Shown here piece by piece: positions 9,783 through 14,227 of a stretch of DNA of 64,000 nucleotides. The position numbers and the translations under genes were made by a program. How positions within the stretch are numbered: the stretch's first letter is position 1; the number at the start of each line of letters is the position of its first letter. The DNA comes from Devosia beringensis (GTDB lineage Bacteria; Pseudomonadota; Alphaproteobacteria; Rhizobiales; Devosiaceae). The stretch spans positions 3,192,001 to 3,256,000 of the forward strand of contig NZ_CP045422.1 in the NCBI RefSeq assembly GCF_014926585.1, written 5' to 3'. The notes under the pieces were generated by a model. The model was not told the DNA's origin. It saw nothing but the letters and a program-made list of their open reading frames with translations, and made no database searches.

Positions 9783-10652
9783 ATGAGCGAGGTCATGGAG
9801 CCAGCACTGGCTGATACCGACGGCGCCGAAAGCGGCTTCCACCCCATCTATGCCCAGGCGCCGGGCAGCGGCGAGTTCAACAAGCTGCGCAAGAGGCTGA
9901 TCCGGCACACGCGCGAGGCGCTGGACAAGTTCGAGATGGTGCGGCCGGGCGAGAAATGGCTGGTGGCGCTGAGTGGCGGCAAGGACAGCTATTCCATGCT
10001 GGCGCTGCTGCTCGACCTCAAATGGCGCGGCCTGCTGCCGGTCGAGCTTCTGGTCTGCAATCTCGACCAGGGGCAGCCCAATTTCCCCAAGCATATCCTG
10101 CCTGAATTCCTCACCGGCATCGGGGTGCCGCATCGCATCGAATACAAGGACACCTATTCGATCGTCACCAGCAAGATGCCGGCGGGAGCGACCTATTGCT
10201 CGCTATGCAGCCGGCTGCGGCGCGGCAATCTCTATCGCATTGCGCGCGAGGAGGGCTGCACCGCGCTGGTGCTGGGCCATCACCGCGACGACAGCCTCGA
10301 AACCTTTTTCATGAACCTGTTCCATGGCGGCAAGCTGGCCGCCATGCCGCCGCGCCTGCTCAATGACGAGGGCGATATCGAGGTGCTGCGGCCGCTGATC
10401 TATTGCGGCGAGGAAGACCTGCAGCGCTTCTCGGATGCCATGGGCTTTCCCATCATCCCCTGTGACCTGTGCGGTAGCCAGGACGGGCTCGAGCGCAATG
10501 CCATGAAGGCCATGCTCAGCGATATCGAAAAGCGCATGCCCGGTCGCAAGGATGTCATGATCCGTGCGCTAGGCAACATCAATGCCAGCCATATGCTGGA
10601 TACCAAGCTGTTCGATTTTTCCGCGCTGTTCGACAAAAGGACGCAACCGTGA
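9783..10652 (+). CDS. ttcA: tRNA 2-thiocytidine(32) synthetase TtcA
   Basis: 289-residue PP-loop ATPase that thiolates C32 of certain tRNAs using an iron-sulfur cluster. The ATP pyrophosphatase loop SGGKDS is at residues 64-69, CSLC (Cys139/Cys142) and CDLC (Cys227/Cys230) are the cluster and catalytic cysteines, and [16 protein letters not shown] is the conserved substrate-binding block. The family is oxygen-sensitive and needs ATP, cysteine-derived sulfur and IscS. The 4-nt GTGA overlap with the next gene indicates co-translation. Confidence 0.95.
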
Positions 10653-11467
10653 ATTTTGACGTGATGGAACTGGCCGCGATCCTGCGCGATGCGGCCCGGG
10701 CCGAGGCCCTGCCGCGCTTCCGCCGGCTCGATGCCTCTATGGTCAGCACCAAGACCGAGGCCATTGACCTAGTCACCGAAGCCGACGTGGCCACTGAAGA
10801 GGTGATCAAGGCCGCCATCGCGCAATGGATGCCCGAGGCGCTGTTCGTGGGCGAGGAATCGGTGGCCGCTGATCCGGCTTTGCTGCTGGCTTTGGCCGAG
10901 GCCGACTTGGCCGTGGTGGTCGATCCGATCGATGGCACCGCCAATTACGCCGCCGGCCTGCCGCTGTTTGCCACCATGGCTGCGGTGGTGTCCAAGGGCG
11001 AGACCATTGCCGGCATCATCTATGACCCGATGGGCGATGACTGGGTGATGGCCGAAAAGGGCGGTGGCGCGTGGCTGCGCCGGCCCAATGGCGAGGCCGT
11101 GCGCCTGCAGGTGGCGGCGCCGCTGCCGCTGGCTGAAATGGTGGGCACGTCGTCGGTTGCCTTCATGCCGGCCGGGTCGCGGTCGGCGGTGCTGGCCAAT
11201 TTCGACAAGCTGCGCATGGTCGCCAACTTTCGCTGCGCCGGGCACGAATACCGCACCTTCGCCTCCGGCCATGGGCAGTTCGCCTGCTACAACAAGCTGA
11301 TGCCCTGGGACCACCTGGGCGGCACGCTGATCAGCCAGGAGGCCGGCGCCTTTGCCGCCCGGCTCGATGGCCAGCCCTATCTGCCGCACCATGTCGATGG
11401 CGGCCTGCTGCTGGCGGTGGACAAGGACAGCTGGGATGAATTGCGGCGGACCGTGTTTACGTTCTGA
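10649..11467 (+). CDS. Inositol monophosphatase family phosphatase
   Basis: 272-residue Mg-dependent phosphatase of the IMPase/FBPase-like fold. Motif 1 is GEES (about residue 72), motif 2 is [10 protein letters not shown] (about residues 91-100), and the C-terminal metal motif is [14 protein letters not shown], a WDxxGG variant of the usual WDxAAG. It starts with GTG at 10649, overlapping the ttcA stop by 4 nt. In this family enzymes act on inositol-1-phosphate, histidinol phosphate, 3'-phosphoadenosine phosphate or fructose bisphosphate. The ttcA neighbour does not decide which. Confidence 0.87.
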
Positions 11468-11474
11468 GACTCGA

Positions 11475-11507
11475 CCCCCACCTAGCCTCCCCCTGAGGGG
11501 GAGGGAC
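11475..11507. repeat. Left (intact) arm of an intergenic inverted repeat
   Basis: A 33-bp arm containing the inner palindrome CCTCCCCCTGAGGGGGAGG. Its reverse complement matches, with only two adjacent mismatched positions, the right arm that is reconstructed by joining 11548-11559 to 12730-12750. The 40-bp spacer (11508-11547) between arms looks non-coding. Such C/G-rich palindromic units between genes are common repetitive elements in related genomes; copy number elsewhere cannot be seen here. Confidence 0.85.
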
Positions 11508-11573
11508 CGCACAGTGGATTGGTGTGATTGCGCTTCAAACTCGATCTGTCCCTCCCCCTTGTATGTTTGCTTG

Positions 11574-11748
11574 GAGGCCGTGATTGGCGATGATCGGCCT
11601 GGGAGCTTTGGGTTTACCGGGCTCCCGGGCTGGATAGCGTGTGTCCCCCAAGAGCCAGCAAGCTCGCCCCTGAGCAGACGCGTCCGGCCCATCTTGACTG
11701 TCTCGAACGGTTGGTTGGGCGACATGCCCGCATACAAGGCAGAGCGAT
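11574..11748 (+). ncRNA. Predicted bridge RNA of the IS110 element
   Basis: IS110 recombinases use a structured RNA from the leader to hold target and donor DNA. Here a 5' hairpin is visible (GGGAGC 11601-11606 with GCTCCC 11621-11626). A first loop is closed by GGGCTGGA (11627-11634) with TCCGGCCC (11683-11690) and GCGT/ACGC. It contains TCCCCC (11644-11649), the same as the left target flank, and CCCCTGAG (11667-11674), complementary to core plus right flank CTCAGGGG. A second loop around hairpin GGGC/GCCC (11717-11729) contains ACGGTTG (11707-11713), identical to the right end 12721-12727, and CATACAAG (11731-11738), complementary to core plus left end CTTGTATG. The ends of the RNA are approximate, set from the predicted junction promoter and the recombinase start. 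Confidence 0.85.
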
Positions 11749-11749
11749 C

Positions 11750-12712
11750 ATGATTTTTTCCCCAGACTATGTTGGTGTCGACGTCTCCAAGAAGCACCTG
11801 GATCTGGCCATCACCGGCTCGAGCAGGTTGCGCGTGTCCAATAATCCGGCTGGCATGGCTCGGTTGGTGCAAAAGATCTCCAGCCTGACCCGGCCCCATC
11901 TGGTCTGTGAGGCCACCGGCAGCTATACGCGGCTGATGGCCCGCTCGCTCAGCCAGCATGGCATCGCGCTGAGCACGATTAACCCGCGCCGGGTGCGCGA
12001 TCTGGCTCGGGCCGACGGGCTGCTGGCCAAGACCGATGCGATTGACGCCGCGGCGATCCTGCGCTTCGCTCACCTGATGCACCCAGATCCCGACCCCCTC
12101 TACGATCCAAATGCCGTGGAAATGGCCGATCTGGTGCGCCGGCGCCGCCAGATGGTGGATATGCTGGCCATGGAAAAGCAGCGTCGCGAGCACCCTGAAG
12201 CTGCGCTGGCGCAAGCCAGCATCGATGCTCATATAGGCTTCTTGAGCAGCCAGATCGGCGAGATGGATCGGGCCATTACCCGCCAGATCGATAGCGATGC
12301 GACGCTACGGCGCCGGGCCGAACTACTCACCACCATCCCCGGCATCGGCCAGACTACGGCCGCCGTGCTGCTGGCCGAAATGCCCGAGCTGGGCGGCATC
12401 GGCAACAAGCAGGCGGCCGCCTTGGCCGGAGTCGCCCCCTTCAACCGCGATAGTGGTGAGATGCGCGGCCAGGCCCATATCGCCGGCGGACGCCTCTCGG
12501 TGCGCTGCGCTCTCTATATGGCCACCCTGTCGGCCATCCGTGCTAACCCGCCCATCCGCGACTTCTACAAAAGGCTGCGCGCCCAGGGCAAACCGGGAAA
12601 GCTCGCCATCGTCGCCGCCATGCGCAAACTCATCACGACAGCCAATGCCGTCCTTGCCAACAACACCCCCTGGCACACCAACAACACCCCCTGGCACACC
12701 AACACAGCTTGA
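11750..12712 (+). CDS. IS110 family RNA-guided recombinase (transposase)
   Basis: 320-residue DEDD recombinase. The RuvC-like domain has Asp11 (VGVDVSKKHLD), Glu54 (CEATGSYT) and Asp96/Asp99 (KTDAID). A middle helical region contains the helix-hairpin-helix TIPGIGQTTAAVL. The C-terminal Tnp domain has GVAPFNRDSGEMRG and GGRLSVRCALYMATL, with Ser250 as candidate nucleophile. All catalytic residues are intact, so activity is plausible. The last 20 residues carry a duplicated heptapeptide NNTPWHT from a 21-bp tandem repeat. ATG 11750 immediately follows the predicted bridge RNA. Confidence 0.95.
   Translation: MIFSPDYVGVDVSKKHLDLAITGSSRLRVSNNPAGMARLVQKISSLTRPHLVCEATGSYTRLMARSLSQHGIALSTINPRRVRDLARADGLLAKTDAIDAAAILRFAHLMHPDPDPLYDPNAVEMADLVRRRRQMVDMLAMEKQRREHPEAALAQASIDAHIGFLSSQIGEMDRAITRQIDSDATLRRRAELLTTIPGIGQTTAAVLLAEMPELGGIGNKQAAALAGVAPFNRDSGEMRGQAHIAGGRLSVRCALYMATLSAIRANPPIRDFYKRLRAQGKPGKLAIVAAMRKLITTANAVLANNTPWHTNNTPWHTNTA
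12659..12700 (+). repeat. 21-bp perfect tandem duplication in the transposase 3' end
   Basis: Two identical 21-bp units (12659-12679 and 12680-12700), starting AACAACACCCCCTGG, encode NNTPWHT twice in frame. The duplication adds seven residues to the disordered tail without touching the catalytic domain. Confidence 0.95.
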
Positions 12713-12739
12713 CCGCAAACACGGTTGCTCAGGGGGAGG

Positions 12740-13936
12740 TCAGGTGGGGGATGCAATCGCCCTTGCCGCCGCCTCGACCGCGCCCGGCCCGTGGGTAATG
12801 CCCAGGGCCTGCAGGCCGGCTTCCATACTGGCCAGGACGCCCAGCGTCATATGGGCATTCACATGGCCCATATGGCCGACGCGCAGAAAGTCCTGATAGG
12901 CCGGCTCGCTGGGCGCAGCCATGCCCAGGCCAATGCCCAGGGTTACGCCGGCCTCGGCTTCCAGCCAGCGCCGCAGGGCGCCGGCGCCACCATGGGGAAT
13001 GGTCGCGGCGGTGACGGAGTGGCCGCGGTCGGTCGGGTTGGCCATGTTGAGCGCGATGGCGCTGCCGGCGCCCCAGGCGTCGAAGGCGGCCCAGACGGCG
13101 CTGGCCAGGCGCTGGTGGCGGGCCCAGACGGCTTCGAGCCCTTCCTCGTCGAGGATCATGGTCAGCGCCTCCCGCAGGCCATAGAGGTGGTGGGTCGGGG
13201 CGGTGCCGCCGAAATATTGCCAGAACTCGGTGCCGGTGCCGCGTGGCTTCCAGTCCCAATAGGGGGTGACGAGGTCGGCGCGGCGGGAAAGCTCCAGCGC
13301 CTTGTCGGAAAACCAGACAAAGCCCAGGCCCGGCGGCAGCATCAGCCCCTTCTGGCTGGCGCCGACCACGACATCGATGCCCCAATCGTCCATGCGCAAC
13401 TCGTCGCAGGCCAGCGAGGCGATGGCGTCGACGGCCAGCAGCGCCGGGTGGCCCGTGCTGTCGATGGCGGCGCGGATGGCGGGCAGGTCATTGCGGGCGC
13501 TCGAGGCCGTATCGACATGGGTGACCAGAACGGCCTTGATCTGGTGGGTGGTATCGGCGCGCAGGGCGTCGGCGATACGCTGCGGATCGGCGGGACTGGC
13601 CTTGCCGAAGTCGATGATCTCGACGCTGACGCCCTGTCGCGCCAGCCCCTCCGCCCAGCCATGGCCGAAGCGGCCGGTGGCGACCAGCAGGGCGCGATCA
13701 CCACGCGCGAACATGTTGCAATTGGCCGCCTCCCAGGCGCCATGACCATTGGCGATATAGATGGCGACGTGCTGGCTGGTCTGGGCGACGCGCCTGAGAT
13801 CGGGAATCAGCGCCCGCGTCATGTCGACGATCTCGCCCTCATAGATATTGGGGGCGCTGCGATGCATGGCGTTGAGCACGCGCTCGGGCGAAACCGAGGG
13901 GCCGGGAATGGCGAGATAGGTGCGGCCGGTGGTCAT
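12740..13936 (-). CDS. Class V aminotransferase (alanine/serine-glyoxylate type)
   Basis: 398-residue PLP enzyme of the alanine/serine-glyoxylate aminotransferase family. The PLP lysine lies in VGASQKGLMLPPGLGF (about residue 196). Upstream VLVTHVDTASSARND and LLAVDAIASLACDE hold the cofactor-binding Asp. The N-terminal IPGPSVSPERVLNAM is the start of the subgroup. It probably moves amino groups to glyoxylate or a related keto acid. The last codons and the TGA stop (12740-12742) lie inside the repeat arm next to the IS110 element, so the element inserted 10 bp beyond the stop codon and the protein is intact. Confidence 0.88.
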   Translation of the reverse strand: MTTGRTYLAIPGPSVSPERVLNAMHRSAPNIYEGEIVDMTRALIPDLRRVAQTSQHVAIYIANGHGAWEAANCNMFARGDRALLVATGRFGHGWAEGLARQGVSVEIIDFGKASPADPQRIADALRADTTHQIKAVLVTHVDTASSARNDLPAIRAAIDSTGHPALLAVDAIASLACDELRMDDWGIDVVVGASQKGLMLPPGLGFVWFSDKALELSRRADLVTPYWDWKPRGTGTEFWQYFGGTAPTHHLYGLREALTMILDEEGLEAVWARHQRLASAVWAAFDAWGAGSAIALNMANPTDRGHSVTAATIPHGGAGALRRWLEAEAGVTLGIGLGMAAPSEPAYQDFLRVGHMGHVNAHMTLGVLASMEAGLQALGITHGPGAVEAAARAIASPT

Positions 13937-14227
13937 GGATGTGGGGCTCGGAATGGGACAGGCAGGTCAAGCCATCAGACGGGACTCGCCGATCCGGAGC
14001 AATAGGCTTGCATGAATGGCAGGCATCAACGCGCTTGATGGGGACGTGCAAAAGCGCCGCCTGTCTGCGGTTGTCACGGGTAATGGGCGGCCTCTGACTC
14101 GAGCCAGTGTACAAACTCGGGGAGCCAGGGGCCGCCCATCACGGTATCGGCTTGCTTAGGGGGTCTGGTATCAGGCGGTACCAATGTTGCAGGCCATTCG
14201 AGCGTAGCTCTCGTGGCCTTCTTGCTT

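Follow-up and report, generated by a model that had tools for sequence, protein, structure and literature searches.

What directs an IS110 insertion sequence of Devosia beringensis into the same palindrome at each place where it is found, and does the leader of its recombinase gene hold the answer? Bridge RNAs, the covariation of their guides across thousands of IS110 elements, the CT core, REP targets and the junction promoter are described by Durrant et al. 2024 (PMC11208160) and Hiraizumi et al. 2024 (PMC11208158), the latter also describing handshake guides for IS621; seekRNAs and two natural redirections are reported by Siddiquee et al. 2024 (PMC11187229), and IS110 elements in REPs, including ISRm19 of Sinorhizobium meliloti, by Tobes and Pareja 2006 (PMC1525189). 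The literature already covers bridge RNAs or seekRNAs, natural redirection, promoters at the junction and REPs as insertion sites of IS110 elements, and the hint in a preliminary description of this locus that such an RNA was being read for the first time is unsupported, guides being in print for many IS110 elements (PMC11208160, PMC11187229). Here, we analyse a 64,000-nt stretch of D. beringensis DNA (the window) together with the other copies of its element and its relatives. We put at about 96% the probability that it carries an IS110-group insertion sequence that is active, or was until recently, and has a bridge RNA encoded in its leader; the guides, ends, target, orientation and flank covariation can be followed in the sequences compared below.

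The element is intact, with CT cores at both ends. Its ends were set by comparing 11 genomic copies, independently of guide matches, and the layout is as follows.

11558–12727, + strand: IS110-group element of about 1.17 kb, starting with the left CT core and ending one base short of the right CT core (ends from comparing 11 copies)
11558–11559, + strand: left CT core
12728–12729, + strand: right CT core
11550–11557, + strand: CCCTCCCC, left half of the target palindrome that the element interrupts
12730–12739, + strand: CAGGGGGAGG, right half of the target palindrome that the element interrupts
11486–11504, strandless: intact partner palindrome in the inverted doublet to which the target belongs, CCTCCCCCTGAGGGGGAGG
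11750–12712, + strand: IS110 recombinase of 320 amino acids, with DEDD residues D11, E54, D96 and D99 plus S235 (PF01548, PF02371)

From their sequences, we take the upstream neighbour (10649–11467) to resemble inositol monophosphatase and the downstream neighbour (12740–13936, opposite strand) to resemble an aminotransferase. The non-coding end upstream of the recombinase gene spans 11558–11749, roughly 190 nt, versus 15 nt from the stop codon to the right core. A long non-coding end lies upstream of the gene in the IS110 group and downstream of it in the IS1111 group (PMC11208160), and the domains and upstream non-coding end of this element indicate that it belongs to the IS110 group of the IS110 family.

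The predicted RNA and its guides occupy most of this leader.

11575–11748, + strand: bridge RNA with predicted ends (MFE fold, consensus fold with relatives and a covariance model match at 11629–11747)
11575–11600 and 11601–11626, + strand: two 5′ hairpins of the predicted RNA (MFE fold)
11627–11690, + strand: target loop (MFE fold)
11644–11649, + strand: left target guide TCCCCC, equal to the last five left-target bases plus the first core base
11652–11665, + strand: central hairpin of the target loop (MFE fold)
11667–11674, + strand: right target guide CCCCTGAG, complementary to CT plus CAGGGG
11675–11676, + strand: target-side handshake bases CA, the complement of the donor dinucleotide TG that adjoins the core on its left (position by analogy with IS621)
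about 11698–11742, + strand: donor loop (MFE fold)
11707–11713, + strand: left donor guide ACGGTTG, equal to the right end of the element
11731–11738, + strand: right donor guide CATACAAG, complementary to CT plus TGTATG at the left end
11739–11740, + strand: donor-side handshake bases GC, of which G pairs with the last left-target base C and the second is unpaired

The preliminary description had located four guide strings in the leader of an intact IS110 element, and all four are present at these positions, in bridge-RNA order. Its judgement that four ordered matches are improbable by chance also holds: the observed ordered four-guide score is 29 nt, a value not attained by any of 20,000 dinucleotide-shuffled leaders with the ends kept fixed, and an ordered quadruple with at least 5 nt in each guide arose in one shuffled leader of 20,000. 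The predicted fold agrees with the two guide loops that had been proposed, with the target guides on either side of an internal loop around the central hairpin, followed by the donor loop; in each of the two loops the 5′ guide corresponds to the bottom strand and the 3′ guide to the top strand. The 5′ hairpin previously recognized at 11601–11626 is likewise predicted by the MFE fold, though not as the sole one, being preceded by a second at 11575–11600. The folding energy of the leader is ordinary (z = −1.05; 28 of 200 shuffles fold as well), and the left target guide is short, at 6 nt versus the 8–9 nt given for that side of IS621-type loops (PMC11208160). The two target guides are not independent of each other, because the target is a C/G-rich near-palindrome.

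A covariance search, which had been suggested earlier, gave a divided answer: Rfam returned no match at E up to 1 in 10500–14000, whereas a model built on four leaders recovered the RNA in front of distant IS110 genes. The four leaders are those of the window, of G160 and of L029 and L030 (L numbers label loci and G numbers genomes), and, as a raw count, 13 of their 38 consensus pairs show two-sided pair-keeping changes. We searched the model in 45 hand-chosen sources of the 180 available (the window and 179 loci). It matched at E < 0.01 in 35 of the 45, eight of which contain an element used in the model or a further copy of such an element, and in 27 of the 37 sources without a model element, where nearly all matches lie directly upstream of a recombinase gene. 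The match at 11629–11747 is to be read with the window itself among the sequences of the model; five loci (L012, L032, L034, L089 and L119) gave no match at E up to 10. Beyond these sources, 2,677 plasmid records with related proteins included none at 60% identity or more, and an order-wide search of 397 genomes gave no further element at E 1e-75 or better.

The genome, a single contig of 4.05 Mb, contains 11 full copies of the element and one 28-base match. All 11 copies lie at different places, each in the same REP-like palindrome, CCCTCCCC-CT-CAGGGGGAGG, in the same orientation and with the left end of the element always toward the second palindrome of the inverted doublet (11 of 11). The right target guide pairs at 8/8 positions in every copy, and the left target guide at 6/6 in nine copies and 4/6 in two. 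The preliminary description had looked to other copies for agreement with the target guides, and this is what they give: the 11 loci share the target that the guides specify, and relatives with other flanks carry other target guides that fit those flanks. Were both orientations equally good, the shared orientation would be expected by chance once in 1,024 cases (two-sided), and the opposite strand of the 19-bp palindrome differs by one right-guide base only. CT is found at both ends of nine copies, and TT on the left with CT on the right in the other two, L010 and L011; L010 also carries a single substitution, and L011 a frame-disrupting insertion of one base. In the window element, the CT core is common to target and donor, and the target is not duplicated. 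Two of the copies, L002 and L003 (G000:C1:2941459-2944435), lie 645 bp apart in the same orientation, each in its own palindrome, an arrangement that resembles a small composite element.

The target is a REP-like repeat, that is, a short intergenic palindrome present in many copies and often as inverted pairs. A strict palindrome pattern has 27 forward matches in the genome and none in a reversed control, and many target palindromes form intergenic inverted pairs about 67 bp apart throughout the genome (11470–11504 and 12730–12750 in the window; L013–L028 elsewhere). Similar doublets occur in many genomes of the genus. Using orthologues of the upstream gene in the genus, we compared eight stretches with the joined flanks of the window element. 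The joined flanks align through the insertion point in five of the eight (L172, L173, L174, L175 and L179), and all of these but L179, which has a palindrome of another type at the aligned site, carry an uninterrupted related doublet. The centres of these four empty related doublets measure 20 or 21 bp, and the 19-bp form is absent from them. As for the remaining three, L177 has palindromes without alignment through the insertion point, L178 matches on both sides without a doublet, and the L176 stretch ends at its contig end.

Two forms of the target have to be distinguished.

19-bp target form: CCTCCCCCTCAGGGG
20-bp target form: CCTCCCCCTTCAGGGG

Intact palindromes with at most one mismatch comprise 26 of the 20-bp form (centre TTC, in one case TCC) and five of the 19-bp form, counts that include the partner palindromes of occupied doublets. 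The insertions are distributed the other way: nine of 11 fit the rarer 19-bp form and two, L010 and L011, the 20-bp form (Fisher P = 0.00018 versus intact sites). Among doublets with a partner of the 20-bp kind, irregular ones included, the hand-counted ratio of 19-bp to 20-bp forms is 6:2 when occupied and 3:16 when empty (P = 0.006). The simplest reading would be a preference of the guides for the 19-bp form; this form matches both guides in register at 14/14 positions, and the 20-bp form at 11/14. The 20-bp form speaks against a simple sum rule: its opposite strand scores 12, yet both insertions took the register that scores 11.

The junctions of L010 and L011 bear on how strands are exchanged. 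Top-strand cleavage in IS621 falls 3′ of the core, between T9 and base 10 (PMC11208158); with such a cut the target core stays on the left and the donor core on the right, as in L010 and L011. Their sites were, we infer, 20-bp palindromes, although an element variant with one more T, or T loss in the other nine copies, may instead account for the difference. Our tentative proposal, to which we give somewhat less than even odds, is that the guides read a near-symmetric repeat at single-base resolution: CTCAGG versus CTGAGG would set the orientation, 19 versus 20 bp would select the copies, and the ill-fitting 20-bp insertions would record strand exchange, with the target TT on the left and the donor CT on the right. 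If this is true, these natural copies are fossils of a bridge-recombination intermediate. A less likely alternative is that the nine sites that now look like the 19-bp form started out as 20-bp palindromes, each losing a T as the element inserted. T loss would fit the 26-to-5 excess of 20-bp sites among intact palindromes with at most one mismatch, the centres of the related empty doublets and the partner palindromes, which are of the 20-bp kind or irregular at eight of 11 insertions; against it, conservative recombination at the CT core of a 19-bp site, with 6/6 and 8/8 pairing, yields the observed junctions directly, and two copies display the look expected of a 20-bp insertion without loss.

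Relatives with other targets provide evidence that the RNA specifies the target. G160, a genome of the same family and another genus, has five copies of an element whose recombinase is 72–75% identical. They lie in palindromes CTTCTCCC-CT-CAGGGGAGAAG or close to this, and the RNA reads TCTCCCCT and TCCTTGAG; left and right in-register matches, each out of eight, are 8 and 6 in three copies, 7 and 7 in one and 5 and 7 in one, full pairing with both guides being found in none of the five. G160 contains 106 palindromes of this frame, with various centres among the matches listed. In L029, from a Devosia sp. MAG, the target is ACCTCATC-CT-GAGATGAC and the RNA guides are CCTCATCC and ATCTCAG. Its donor side carries a compensatory change relative to the window, from TGTATG with CATACAAG to TGCATG with CATGCAAG.

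Further elements were found via the literal leader motif CGAACGGTTG, giving a set of 13 elements in which we set the hairpins by eye, the hairpin shift of L118 being hand-chosen after sequence inspection. Of 20 loci read, L077 yielded no result, L125 was assigned a wrong left end, and L056 and L094, whose left ends are uncertain, were excluded from the 11-element tests; the permutation tests left out L139, L143, L145, L148, L125 and L134 as further copies of L142 or L118. For the left and right target guides together, the 13 elements score 10.54 on their own flanks versus 6.12 on those of others, and the 11 elements with sure ends 11.18 versus 6.57; in neither case was the score as high in any of 100,000 flank permutations, statistics that ignore kinship among related elements. 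The right target guide alone was equalled once in 100,000 permutations (11 elements). A score with free guide positions, and one with fixed guide windows that misplace the right guide of L040 and the left guide of L118, were each equalled in none of 200,000. Its own target is strictly the best for eight of the 13 elements, and best or tied for ten. Right donor guides of some distant elements match at 5–7 of 8 positions only. The target guides covary with the target between elements, and one compensatory change is seen on the donor side. In a different IS110 element (L118 and L134, from the same-genus genome G016, with 14 matches there), the target in the two copies read is the palindrome TTGCCCGG-CT-CGTCYGGGCAA, so that targeting of palindromes is either ancestral or of more than one origin.

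These comparisons leave little room for recognition of the REP-like palindrome, or of a cruciform, by the recombinase protein rather than by RNA, with the leader matching the flanks through a once-captured target sequence. A near-palindromic target would suit such recognition, and other IS families target REPs without a bridge RNA, an example being ISRm22 of the IS4 family (PMC1525189). The non-palindromic targets of relatives such as L029, L043, L047 and L049 nevertheless match guides at the same RNA positions, and all 11 copies share one orientation though the strands differ by one right-guide base; we regard protein recognition as very improbable. In IS621 (PMC11208160) and ISEc21 (PMC11187229), guide swaps redirect the same protein. 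Chance matches, or a hairpin that regulates the transposase mRNA in cis and guides nothing, would accord with the ordinary fold energy, with C-rich flanks that C-rich guides match easily and with the possible regulation of translation by IS110-family leaders (ISPpu9), but the leader shuffle and flank permutation tests make this explanation negligible.

Further support comes from the bases that follow the guides, along with the stem covariation noted above and the junction motif pair and IS621 catalytic residues described below. Each right guide is followed, according to Hiraizumi et al. (PMC11208158), by bases that pair with the other DNA once exchange has taken place. Directly after the right donor guide, the first of these bases is complementary to the final base of the left target in ten of the 11 sure-ended elements, L043 being the exception, and in 11 of all 13; pairing was as high in 210 (11 elements) and 472 (13 elements) of 100,000 permutations. 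This base, whose call is independent of the guide windows, follows the target, being A opposite T in L075 and C opposite G in L118. The second donor-side base pairs in two of the 13 only. On the target side, the handshake base is C in all 13 and pairs with a constant donor G, and it is therefore uninformative.

Joining the ends of the element in a circle brings two promoter-like motifs together.

11562–11567, + strand: −10-like TATGTT of the predicted circle-junction promoter
12709–12714, + strand: −35-like TTGACC, 17 bases from TATGTT only with the ends joined in a circle

In the window element the joined ends give TTGACC-17-TATGTT, versus a best score of 5/12 at the integrated left end, and 131 of 20,000 right-end shuffles score as well at that place. 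The same pair at the same offset occurs in nine of the 11 circle junctions examined, L029 and L118 lacking it, and additionally in both cyanobacterial junctions; the integrated junction also scores fairly high in several relatives (9 versus 10 in L043). We consider these motifs a promoter-like sequence formed across the circle junction. The transcription, binding and chemistry of the element would, we infer, proceed as follows. The recombinase would excise the element as a circle, and end joining at the CT core would put TTGACC 17 bases from TATGTT, creating a promoter that may transcribe the RNA from about 11572–11575. The target loop (TCCCCC and CCCCTGAG) would pair with the two strands of the REP-like palindrome and the donor loop (ACGGTTG and CATACAAG) with the joined ends, and the recombinase, using its RuvC DEDD site and serine 235, would then exchange strands at the CT core, leaving the target unduplicated.

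This organization closely resembles published accounts of IS621 of Escherichia coli, which likewise has a leader-encoded RNA with a 5′ stem-loop, a target loop then a donor loop and the same four-guide order, as well as a CT core, a junction promoter, a DEDD and serine recombinase and insertion in REP elements. The two differ in their target and donor sequences, and the window element has the shorter left target guide (6 nt) and two predicted 5′ hairpins. ISEc21, as described in PMC11187229, shares the upstream non-coding region, the bottom-strand match before the top-strand match and the junction promoter, and ISEc21 and ISMch6 show a natural target change with a matching RNA change; the ISEc21 site, in contrast, lies inside IS3-family transposase genes and is not a palindrome. 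ISRm19, likened by description, is an IS110 element from a host in the Hyphomicrobiales; each of its four listed copies sits within a REP sequence (PMC1525189). A literature search, covering publications rather than ISfinder, gave none on this element among the matches listed. Less usual here are nine of 11 insertions in the rare 19-bp form that fully matches the guides, with TT on the left and CT on the right in the other two. The known mechanism is unchanged by this element, for which the natural evidence is unusually clean: it enlarges the set of bridge-RNA elements by one whose 11 natural insertions in a single genome and naturally redirected close relatives form a ready test set for guide rules concerning core mismatch, orientation, the weight of left versus right guides and the handshake bases.

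It also adds a compact recombinase of 320 amino acids. An N-terminal DEDD RuvC domain and a C-terminal Transposase_20 domain with the catalytic serine are both present, PF01548 and PF02371 each scoring above cut-off (8.2e-20 for both). By motif and alignment, the catalytic residues D11, E60, D102, D105 and S241 of IS621 correspond to D11, E54, D96, D99 and S235. The solved chains closest in sequence are ISCro4 (PDB 9t56, E 2.5e-40), likened here on the recombinase only, and IS621 (8wt6), to which the protein is only distantly similar (phmmer E 1.4e-39). Close to its 3′ end, the recombinase gene has a 21-bp repeat (12660–12709 in the window, residues NNTPWHT) that is present as three units in four of the 11 copies and as two units in seven (L001–L011), the unit number thus varying among otherwise near-identical copies. 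Several related IS110 frames, L110, L112 and L115 (from G080, G088 and G034), appear to contain one in-frame TGA inside the match.
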